Shown here: positions 6,320 to 16,409 of the stretch, one piece after another
Layout of the letters: each line of letters starts with the position of its first letter
How positions within the stretch are numbered: position 1 is the stretch's first letter
NCBI GenBank assembly: GCA_013152435.1
Contig: JAADGJ010000075.1
Location: 1-33,738 of the forward strand
Origin: Chloroflexota bacterium
GTDB taxonomy: Bacteria; Chloroflexota; Anaerolineae; DUEN01
Reading direction: 5' to 3'
DNA: 33,738 bases
The notes under the pieces: model-generated
Told to the model about the DNA's origin: nothing
Databases searched by the model: none
The model's input: the letters and a program-made list of their open reading frames with translations, nothing else
Position numbers and translations under genes: made by a program

Positions 6320-6413
6320 GTCGTGCGTCTGCAGCCGGGCGCCAGGGCCCAGCCGGTCAGTGGGCGTTCTCGTGGACGGTGCTGGTCCTCATGGGAGGGC
6401 ATCCGGCCTGCGC

Positions 6414-13250: not shown

Positions 13251-13764
13251 ATTTTTAAGTGCTATTTTCTAGACGGTCCACAATATACAGTAGAAAATGT
13301 TTGTGCGACCTCGATAGCTAGTGGTCGGAGGATAAGGCCCTTGGATGGGGGTTGCCCCAGGTTTCACATAAGAAAGCGGGAAAATGGGGATGAAGGCGAT
13401 TGCCTCCTCGCCAATTGTTTGGTAGAATCCTCCGCCACTGCAAGGAGAGTTAAGAGGCTTCACCTCGAAGGTTATTCTACCACAGGTTGGTCAAAAGGAA
13501 AGAGGAGGCGTGTCTTCTGGCGGGGCATGGGCAGTCCCTCTTGTCTGTGCCGGGCAGCCGCCTTGCTTCTGTCACCCTACGGTGATCGGTTTTGGAGGAC
13601 CTCTTCCTCTGGCTCGATGGGCTCTTCAGTAGGTAAGCGCTGGAAGCTTCTGCCGACGTGGTATGCATGGGTGTGCAGGTTTTCACCGGATGAGGGCTCG
13701 CCGACCTGGTGGGGAGGCCGGTGCGACACGTCGCTTACCATCGCAGGTGGCGGGGGAGGACATC
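13251..13764. other. Intergenic region and dnaA leader
   Basis: About 510 bp without a convincing gene. The left end has an AT-rich 19-mer at 13259-13277 (GCTATTTTCTAGACG) resembling the origin repeats downstream of dnaA, followed by a CCACAA half-box. The dnaA promoter lies at 13400-13428. The remaining 336 nt would be an unusually long dnaA 5' leader; a 151-aa frame there overlaps the leader and resembles nothing. Confidence 0.45.
13400..13428 (+). promoter_or_regulatory. Probable dnaA promoter
   Basis: TTGCCT (13400-13405), 17-bp spacer, TAGAAT (13423-13428). It is the best promoter match upstream of dnaA but lies about 335 bp before the start codon. Confidence 0.5.
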
Positions 13765-15141
13765 ATGAACGACACGGCAAGTTCTCTAAGCGCTGAGGAA
13801 CTCTGGCAGGCCGCCAAAGGCGAGCTCCAGTTGCGCGTGGCTCGCGCCACCTATGACACGTGGTTAAGGGACAGTCGCCTCGTCGCCTATGAGGACGGGA
13901 TGTTCGTGATCGGTGTCCCCAACGCGTACGCCAAGGATTGGCTGGAGCACCGCCTGTACGGGGTCATCCGGCGGGTGTTGGAGAGCATTGCCGGACGTTC
14001 AGTGGAGCTGCGCTTCACGGTGTATGCGCCCGCGGAGCGGCCTAATGCCACCGAGAAGGAGACGCCTTTGCTGCGTGCGGTGCCCCAATGGGAAGATGTG
14101 ATGGAGCCCGTGTCGGATAACGGGCGGTACTATTTGAACCCCCGATACACCTTTGACACCTTCATCGTGGGGGATAGCAACTGCCTGGCTCATGCCGCCG
14201 CCCTCTCGGTGGCGGACCATCCCGGGCAGGAGTACAATCCGTTGTTCATCTACGGCGGCGTCGGTTTGGGGAAGACCCACCTGCTGCACGCCATCGGCCA
14301 TCGTACCCTGGAGCGGGGGGCCGATATCCTGTACGTCACCTCGGAGGAGTTCACCAACGATTTGATCGCGGCCATTCGCATGCATGATACGGAGTCCTTC
14401 CGCAACAAATATCGCACGGCCGATGTGTTGCTCATCGATGATATCCAGTTCATCGCTGGGAAGGAGAGCACTCAGGAGGAGTTCTTCCACACCTTCAACG
14501 CGCTGCACGCCGCGAATAAGCAGATCGTGTTGACCAGCGATCGCCCGCCGAAGGCCATGACCACGTTGGAGGAGCGGTTGCGGTCCCGTTTTGACGGCGG
14601 GCTGTGTGTGGATATCAAACCTCCCGGCCTGGAAGTGCGGGCGGCGATCCTTGAGGCTAAGGTGGCCATGATGAACATGCGGTTGTCCAGCGAGATCATC
14701 ATGGCGATCGCGCAGCATGTGCGCACGAATATTCGGGACCTCGAGGGGGTGCTGAACCGGGTCGTCGCCGAGGCGCGGGTCCGAAACGTCCCCATCTCCT
14801 CGGAGCTGGTGTACGCGGTCCTGGAGGACTTGACGCCTCCGCAGGCGAACCTGCCGCCCGAGCAGATCATCTCCCTGGTCGCCCGGTTTTTCGGGTTGAC
14901 CGCGGAGCAGCTCACCGGGCGAGGCCGTAGCAAGGAAGTATCTCTGGCCCGGCAGGTGCTGATGTATCTCCTCCGGACGGACTTCGATTTCTCCTACCCT
15001 CAGATCGGCAATTTGCTCAATCGCGATCACACGACGATCATCCACGGCGTCGAGAAGATGAAGGAGATGATCGAGACCGACGACGCGCTTCACCGTCGTG
15101 TGATGGCGTTGCGAGAGCAATTGCTGACGACGGGGGGGTGA
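13765..15141 (+). CDS. dnaA: Chromosomal replication initiator protein DnaA
   Basis: A 458-aa protein with all four DnaA domains. Domain I (about 10-88) is DnaB/partner binding and begins LWQAAKGELQLRVARATYDTWL. Domain II is a very short linker. Domain III AAA+ (about 122-335) has the NPRYTFDTFIVG start, Walker A GGVGLGKTHLL (164-174), Walker B LLIDDIQF and sensor TSDRPP. Domain IV has RGRSKEVSLARQVLMYLLR and the DnaA-box-reading helix NRDHTTIIHGVEKM. It binds the TGTGGATAA boxes directly downstream and opens the origin. The ATG at 13765 follows GGGGGAGG. The gene is not followed by dnaN as in many bacteria; instead the origin-like repeats begin within 240 bp. Confidence 0.97.
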   Translation: MNDTASSLSAEELWQAAKGELQLRVARATYDTWLRDSRLVAYEDGMFVIGVPNAYAKDWLEHRLYGVIRRVLESIAGRSVELRFTVYAPAERPNATEKETPLLRAVPQWEDVMEPVSDNGRYYLNPRYTFDTFIVGDSNCLAHAAALSVADHPGQEYNPLFIYGGVGLGKTHLLHAIGHRTLERGADILYVTSEEFTNDLIAAIRMHDTESFRNKYRTADVLLIDDIQFIAGKESTQEEFFHTFNALHAANKQIVLTSDRPPKAMTTLEERLRSRFDGGLCVDIKPPGLEVRAAILEAKVAMMNMRLSSEIIMAIAQHVRTNIRDLEGVLNRVVAEARVRNVPISSELVYAVLEDLTPPQANLPPEQIISLVARFFGLTAEQLTGRGRSKEVSLARQVLMYLLRTDFDFSYPQIGNLLNRDHTTIIHGVEKMKEMIETDDALHRRVMALREQLLTTGG

Positions 15142-16260
15142 AGATCGATCGTTCCGAGCCGGTGATCCCCGTTTCAACTCCTGTGATGTGACCTCGTAGA
15201 TGTCACATACCGTCTCCTCGCGGCCTGTTTTCGCGAGCCGTCGGGCTTGTGGAAAACAGGCGGTGAGGGTGGTGATATGTGGATAAGTGGGCTAGTTCTG
15301 GGGAAAACCCACTGCAATTGTGGATAACTCCCATTGGGATATCCGCGCTACACCCCACTCCTCGTGTGGCCACAGAAGTGTAGTACTATATATTGGACGC
15401 AAGGCGGCGGCAGCCGGGAAGATTTCCACAGGTCTCGGGTGGGGGACATAGAGGGGACACCGAGAGTGTAGTGGTATTTATTGGATGATATACGTGTTGA
15501 GACGGGATGTCGCCGCGTAGGCCCGGGAGGGCCTTTTTTCATCTCTAAAATGCAAGTATTATTTATTGGATATTTTGGGTTGGCGTGTGGATAATTTCCC
15601 TTGGATCGTCTGTACGGTTAAGAGATTTGCGAGAAACGTAATATGATTTATTAGACGTATTGTGGATAACTGTAGTAGAGTTTTCTGGTGGAAATGTGGT
15701 CTCCCCCCGGCCGGGGGGAAGTCCTGCTAGGGCGGGGAGACCGAAAAGCGGAGCCCTAAAAATATAGTATTATTTATTGGATGCACTGTGGATAACTGTA
15801 GCAGGGTTTTCTGGTGGAAACGCGGTCCTCCATCCGTCATCAGGGAGTTGATTGGGACAGGAAGGGGGCGGGGGCGGGCCGTGGAGCCATGTGAAGCGCG
15901 ACTGGATAGGGCAGCGGGATGAGCGTCCAAAAATGTAGTATTATTTACTAGACGAGCTGTGGATAACTGTAGCAGGGTTTTCTGGAAGAAGTGCGTTCTG
16001 CTCGTTCTCGTGGAGGGGAGCGGGGGGTGCGATCACGCGGACGTCCAAAATGTAGTATTATTTAATGGATGGGTTGTGGATAACTTTCGGGCGGGGTGGT
16101 TAGGGGTTCCCAGGTTCCCTGTCTTGATCGCATGCACACAGGATGGCTGGCGGTATACGTGGGGGGCACCCCGCATGGGTTTATGCGGTGCGGCGGGGGG
16201 ATGGCCGAAATATAGCATTATTTATTGGATGGATTGTGGATAATTCACACCGGGGGTCCG
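15142..16260. other. oriC: Probable chromosomal origin of replication (oriC)
   Basis: This 1.1-kb non-coding region follows dnaA. It contains eight exact DnaA boxes (TGTGGATAA), all in the same orientation: 15278-15286, 15319-15327, 15586-15594, 15661-15669, 15787-15795, 15958-15966, 16075-16083 and 16235-16243, plus a near match at 15248-15256. AT-rich islands alternate with GC-rich stretches, among them a perfect 16-bp palindrome CCCCCCGGCCGGGGGG (15703-15718). Two inverted repeats mark the left side: ATGTGAC/GTCACAT (15186-15208) and CCTGTTTT/AAAACAGG (15224-15260). Position next to dnaA, clustered boxes and AT-rich elements together make an origin very likely. Confidence 0.88.
15381..16243 (+). 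repeat. Array of eight AT-rich 19-mers coupled to DnaA boxes
   Basis: The consensus is TAGTATTATTTATTGGATG. Copies start at 15381, 15469, 15554, 15639, 15765, 15936, 16053 and 16213. In the last five, the DnaA box TGTGGATAA starts exactly 22 bp after the start of the 19-mer; at 15554 the distance is 32 bp, about one helical turn more. The first two have no box. The first four copies are spaced 88, 85 and 85 bp. Boxes at 15661, 15787 and 15958 are followed by a further conserved tail (ACTGTAGCAGGGTTTTCTGG). The 5' part reads TAG-TAT-TAT and, with the box to its right, resembles the DnaA-trio plus box arrangement of the Bacillus unwinding element. Confidence 0.9.
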
Positions 16261-16409
16261 GGAGCTGATTATGGCCTTTGTCCCGCTCCCGTGGCAGGTC
16301 GGGCCCGGCCCAGGCGGGTGAAGGGAAGGGGGGCCGGAGGTGATCCCCCAGCCCCCGGGAACAGCAGGACGGGGCTTTCCTCGCGTGCGCGCTTGGAGGC
16401 GTCCGGCGC

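Follow-up and report, generated by a model that had tools for sequence, protein, structure and literature searches.

The replication origin (oriC) of this Chloroflexota bacterium contains eight related AT-rich 19-mers 3' of dnaA, spanning positions 15381-16231 of the window, by which we mean the whole analyzed stretch of 33,738 nucleotides, taken from a draft assembly of 149 contigs. We consider it slightly better than an even bet, with a probability of roughly 0.55, that the 19-mer is primarily the recognition site of a putative DNA-binding protein, here called X, at oriC and at the mraZ promoter. The same site would double as a weak duplex that DnaA opens, and in this genome it would have been multiplied into DnaA-coupled modules. 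We infer X, its binding, its cooperation with DnaA and the sign of the regulation; the conserved places and spacings of the sites, their low stability, their amplification and their exclusivity are direct observations.

The region downstream of dnaA is the chromosomal origin

The array lies in a region (15142-16409) flanked by dnaA and by an FAD-dependent oxidoreductase gene of opposite orientation. This dnaA, whose best protein matches place the genome in Chloroflexota, is the only full-length copy in the genome, and a plasmid-iteron reading of the array was rejected because the adjoining gene is the single chromosomal dnaA. Eight perfect TGTGGATAA DnaA boxes fall within the region (Table 1), compared with about 2.5 one-mismatch sites expected per window; the box cluster next to dnaA is joined by an AT-rich weak region, the combination by which an oriC is recognized. 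We identify the region downstream of dnaA as oriC by its dnaA linkage, its boxes and its conservation, since the change in GC skew is modest or absent.

An earlier note on this DNA, made from the sequence alone, had also taken the locus for an origin and expected the skew to switch sign here. The origin assignment holds: the locus is linked to dnaA, it carries a box cluster, and the 19-mers are its weakest duplex stretches. The skew does change across dnaA in this contig (0.001 to the left, +0.079 to the right) and in a relative, G001 (0.002 and 0.057), a modest change in draft genomes, but shows no clear switch at dnaA over 257 kb in the draft genome of another relative, G003.

The hairpin between copies 2 and 3 is intrinsic-terminator-like and probably ends dnaA transcripts; it would keep dnaA read-through off copies 3-8. 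An inverted repeat at 15216-15268 (17 nt, 88%) overlaps the extra TGTGGAAAA box. Two further readings of the 19-mer were rejected, namely an RNA element, as Rfam held no match for it, and a promoter or UP element, as a search for sigma-70 -35/-10 pairs at the 19-mers returned only scattered 9/12 matches, with no position common to the copies.

Table 1. Features of the dnaA-oriC region in window coordinates
Feature	Position	Strand	Remarks
dnaA	13765..15141	+	open frame from 13663, likely start ATG at 13765; TIGR00362, 497 bits
Extra upstream box	15248..15256	+	TGTGGAAAA
DnaA box R1, conserved core	15278..15286	+	TGTGGATAA
Degenerate middle box R2	15299..15307	+	TGGGGAAAA here; TGTGGAAAA in relatives
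DnaA box R3, conserved core	15319..15327	+	perfect TGTGGATAA
19-mer copy 1	15381..15399	+	ancestral copy; 19/19 identical to G001 oriC copy
Inverted DnaA box	15422..15430	-	ATTTCCACA, +41 of copy 1
19-mer copy 2	15469..15487	+	no box
Terminator-like hairpin and T run	15519..15540	+	between copies 2 and 3
19-mer copy 3	15554..15572	+	box 32 bp downstream
DnaA box of copy 3	15586..15594	+	perfect TGTGGATAA
Module 4	15639..15669	+	19-mer 15639-15657, 3 nt, box 15661-15669
Module 5	15765..15795	+	19-mer 15765-15783, box 15787-15795
Module 6	15936..15966	+	19-mer 15936-15954, box 15958-15966
Module 7	16053..16083	+	19-mer 16053-16071, box 16075-16083
Module 8	16213..16243	+	19-mer 16213-16231, box 16235-16243

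19-mers and DnaA boxes keep a fixed distance

All eight 19-mers were found where the earlier note had placed them, and its distances proved exact: the last five copies each start 22 bp before a perfect TGTGGATAA and the copy at 15554 starts 32 bp before one, a difference of about one helical turn. Start-to-start spacings are 88, 85, 85, 126, 171, 117 and 160 bp, in agreement with the 85-88 bp claimed for the first four copies. In 100 shuffles there were no 19-mers, that is, none are expected by chance; the copy at 15639, with four mismatches from the consensus, was recovered as a family member. Four features had been overlooked: the degenerate box TGGGGAAAA at 15299, the inverted box at 15422-15430, a copy upstream of mraZ and a weak degenerate relative of the 19-mer (AAGTGCTATTTTCTAGACG) at 13257-13275. 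The last of these lies beside TTTTTAAG, some 500 bp ahead of the likely start of dnaA, and scores 15, compared with at least 25 for the true copies.

Five equal 19-mer-to-box distances never arose in 200,000 random placements, under a null model that ignores duplication. A recent, functionless tandem duplication, in which the fixed spacing reflects shared descent only, would suit modules 4-6, which are alike over about 70 bp at 81-84% identity, including their boxes and a downstream CTGTAGYAGRGTTTTCTGG. Across the five modules, however, identity drops to about 30% in the 3-nt spacer (30%) and the outer flanks (28% at -25..-11), while the 19-mer (84%) and the box (100%) are kept, and the likeness among copies 1-3 is confined to the 19-mer. 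Because spacer and outer flanks have diverged around a retained 19-mer and box, duplication alone does not explain the fixed distance. The single copy is, moreover, conserved across the order, and we regard neutral duplication as the least probable of the readings weighed here. Two conserved islands at a fixed distance, separated by a free spacer, have the sequence pattern of two binding sites in register.

The boxes could also matter chiefly by their number. If the array served DnaA titration or timing, its six extra perfect boxes would mainly buffer DnaA in a datA-like manner, with the 19-mers being architectural or simply carried along. The origin does have eight perfect boxes, as opposed to two in each relative's core, yet titration would leave the conserved 19-mer, the fixed 22 bp and the boxless copies 1 and 2 unexplained, and we consider it very improbable.

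A single copy is shared across the order

The order was sampled by four genomes, this one (G000) and three relatives (G001-G003), of which one belongs to the same genus and two to other genera of the family. Downstream of dnaA, each of the three relatives has boxes TGTGGATAA, TGTGGAAAA and TGTGGATAA at -101, -80 and -60 and then one 19-mer at position 0; an inverted box stands at +41/42 of the 19-mer in G001 and G003, and none was seen near the oriC 19-mer of G002. In the frame of copy 1 of the window, the boxes lie at -103, -82 (degenerate) and -62 and the inverted box at +41, and R3 sits at -59 to -62 from the oriC 19-mer across the four genomes. We take copy 1 to be the ancestral copy.

Copies 2-8 occur in this genome only, and the composite 19-mer/box module was present in one of 298 class genomes, namely this one, which has it five times. 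With one copy in the relatives and the module confined to a single class genome, the 19-mer reads as an order-level feature and the array as an expansion in this lineage. The earlier note had named loss of the 19-mer from close relatives as evidence against its proposal, and this loss did not occur, as all three relatives keep the 19-mer; the 22-bp box modules, for which conservation had also been sought, were seen in this genome only.

The three-box core R1-R2-R3, with spacings of 21 and 20 bp, is common to many class members, and three forward boxes after dnaA form, judging by sequence, a class-wide origin core. For example, loci L016, L017, L020, L015, L032 and L036 have three forward DnaA boxes, 21 and 20 bp apart, directly after dnaA. 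The third box of this core is often TGGGGATAA, and an inverted box occurs further on in many members. A class-wide reading of the 19-mer itself was rejected: in about 26 other families of the class, neither the dnaA nor the mraZ neighbourhood contained it, and 3-mismatch matches across the class stayed at control level.

A second conserved place lies upstream of mraZ

When three mismatches to the earlier note's consensus were allowed, one further copy was found in the genome, upstream of mraZ. The orthologous place carries GTACTRTAGTACTATTTATTKGAYG in all four genomes, diverged in G002 to TAGTACTGATTAATTGACG, and a distance of 73-74 bp separates it from the downstream mraZ -10 box in each of them; there is no DnaA box there, and MraZ operators and the promoter stand between the 19-mer and the gene. 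Between G001 and G003, members of different genera, the mraZ sites are identical at 19/19 bp and over most of the 5' flank. Overall, oriC and a cell-cycle promoter share a site that is conserved in place in 4/4 genomes, as would be expected of the target of an origin regulator. The fixed place and spacing relative to the promoter argue for a protein that reads double-stranded DNA at mraZ.

A genome-wide sequence-model search returned oriC and mraZ as the only places common to more than one genome. The lowest E-values belonged to the oriC sites, to three of the four mraZ sites and to one further site in G002 (C419), which has an E-value of 0.001, neighbours a HAD hydrolase/endonuclease III pair and is not conserved. 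The diverged mraZ site of G002 (E 0.06) ranked just below an intergenic site in G001 (E 0.05), and the weak intergenic matches in G000 and G001 (E 0.05-0.26) are not conserved either.

Two other elements were noticed around these promoters. Only G000 and G003 have a weak second 19-mer-like match over the mraZ promoter, at a distance of 76 bp from the mraZ site (L148:2044-2064, L150:1995-2015). In addition, the element CTTAAAATT precedes the -10 boxes of both mraZ and nrdR by 50-60 bp, at orthologous places in G001-G003, and the pattern MYCTTAAAATTYNNG occurs genome-wide in G000 only at L148 and L200 (C81:24589-24603, 6363-6377). CTTAAAATT is a possible second shared cell-cycle element.

Duplex stability and possible DnaA-only unwinding

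By nearest-neighbour energies, each 19-mer falls within the least stable 0.2% of 21-bp windows of the 52-kb contig. Similarly, the lowest stability around oriC in G001, G002 and G003 falls at the single 19-mer (within 0.4 kcal and 1-2 bases of register). Being among the weakest duplex stretches of the contig and the weakest spot of each relative's origin, the 19-mer is a good candidate DNA-unwinding element (DUE). On these predicted energies it is a natural place for duplex opening, whatever its other roles.

The earlier note had proposed repeated unwinding modules, oriented like the DnaA-trios of Bacillus subtilis. As a repeated basal unwinding system (BUS), DnaA on each forward box would nucleate a filament on three trios (3'-TAT TAT GAT-5') of the adjacent 19-mer and open it, giving at least five unwinding units that need no other protein. 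Our scan required a DnaA box to have three or more NAN trios on the correct strand no further than 16 bp away, in line with the published limits of at least three trios within 16 bp; the commonest published spacer is 13 bp (PMC8287927). The orientation was as proposed: each of the five boxes of modules 4-8 is preceded, at spacer 13, by exactly three correctly oriented NAN trios, an arrangement met by chance at 0.9% of positions, and the other boxes of the window lack such trios. Bacillaceae origin controls yielded GATGATCATGAAGAT in the same orientation at spacer 12, which validates the scan. Geometry, weak duplex and modular repetition all speak for this part of the proposal.

As a full account of the 19-mer, DnaA-only unwinding falls short. 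Neither copies 1-3 nor the element of G001-G003 has the trio arrangement, and these single-copy relatives keep the 19-mer all the same. In them no forward DnaA box stands on the right side of the 19-mer at up to 16 bp, so the 19-mer's conserved role is something other than that of a trio element. Before mraZ, too, it occupies a fixed place in 4/4 genomes, there without a box. Invariant bases lie both within and outside the trio frame, those outside being equally conserved, and the supposed spacer positions (TTATTGGA) match the trios in conservation. Next to the box, the trio is TAT or TAG, not GAT, and the boxes are single, not tandem (GAT and tandem boxes being usual rather than obligatory features). 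Furthermore, the five modules inherit one geometry and count as one observation, not as five independent tests. We consider it rather unlikely that the modules work by DnaA alone, and the DnaA-only and X-site readings are not mutually exclusive.

A putative protein acting at two places

The X-site reading, which we prefer, takes the 19-mer, or about 21-25 bp with its flanks, as an order-specific site read by the putative X at two places: at oriC, between DnaA boxes, and in the division/cell-wall cluster, where the site precedes the start of mraZ transcription by about 95 bp. On its oriC site, with its helical register fixed relative to DnaA on the neighbouring box, X would most likely help or gate DnaA-driven opening; via mraZ, it would tie division-gene expression to initiation. 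The oriC site would then have been multiplied to eight copies, most of them paired with a new DnaA box two, and in one case three, helical turns away, yielding five X-site/DnaA-box modules at 22 bp and one a helical turn further. Such modules should let DnaA load cooperatively at multiple sites and offer several places at which the duplex could open.

Around the junction of TAGT and ACTA, the oriC site is dyad-symmetric at up to 20/24; in the mraZ sites the best dyad is shifted by 4 bp relative to that of the oriC sites. With the dyads 4 bp apart, one protein need not bind the two sites alike. The points against X are the diverged mraZ copy of G002, a sample of four genomes only, and a module geometry that fits DnaA-only unwinding without X. 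In its fullest form, the proposal has an order-specific putative protein recognize a single 19-25-bp site at oriC and the mraZ promoter and nowhere else, thereby coupling initiation with the division cluster; one species' origin would be a modular array of phase-locked site/DnaA-box units, any of which could open the duplex from within the box cluster. This we hold tentatively, at odds that fall somewhat short of even.

Comparison with known systems

No study of a Chloroflexota origin was found in the open-access literature searched. The modules resemble the BUS of B. subtilis and other bacteria in having a trio-like AT sequence 5' of TGTGGATAA, in the same orientation and at spacer 13. They differ from it in occurring as five to eight repeats instead of one, in having only three weak trios with a single, distal GAT, and in their conserved bases outside the trios; the ancestral single copy, moreover, lies outside BUS geometry, and there is a copy at mraZ. 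Likewise, the E. coli oriC DUE, with three AT-rich 13-mers by box R1, shares the repeated weak AT-rich elements 5' of TGTGGATAA, but its 13-mers lie next to each other at the edge of the box cluster, whereas the elements described here are interleaved with boxes over 860 bp.

The AT-rich CTATATATTGG core also resembles the NrdR box ACACWATATATWGTGT, at up to 13/16 (G002 oriC). Typical NrdR-like pairs stand about 31-32 bp apart before nrdR in three of the four genomes (G001-G003), and the 19-mer is absent there, whereas the oriC and mraZ elements are unpaired; the NrdR-box reading was rejected.

CtrA, Spo0A, AdpA, IciA, ArcA and HP1021 bind oriC, several of them at AT-rich repeats (PMC4285127), and CtrA controls oriC as well as cell-cycle genes (PMC8959179). 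The 19-mers share with the sites of origin-binding regulators (CtrA at Caulobacter Cori; MtrA, Spo0A, IciA, HP1021) both the repetition of a specific site among DnaA boxes and the presence of the same site at a cell-cycle promoter, here mraZ. Unlike those systems, the 19-mer differs from the listed motifs, has one or two chromosomal targets only, and is assigned to a protein that is putative. The oriC/mraZ pairing provides a concrete, testable handle on the tie between replication and division in these bacteria, and comparing the one-copy relatives with the eight-copy species amounts to a natural experiment on how an origin acquires modules. According to a 2015 review, DUEs never lie amid a box cluster (PMC4285127). 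An AT-rich element inside the cluster, repeated with boxes at a fixed phase, would differ from the origins described so far, in which the unwinding element flanks the cluster.
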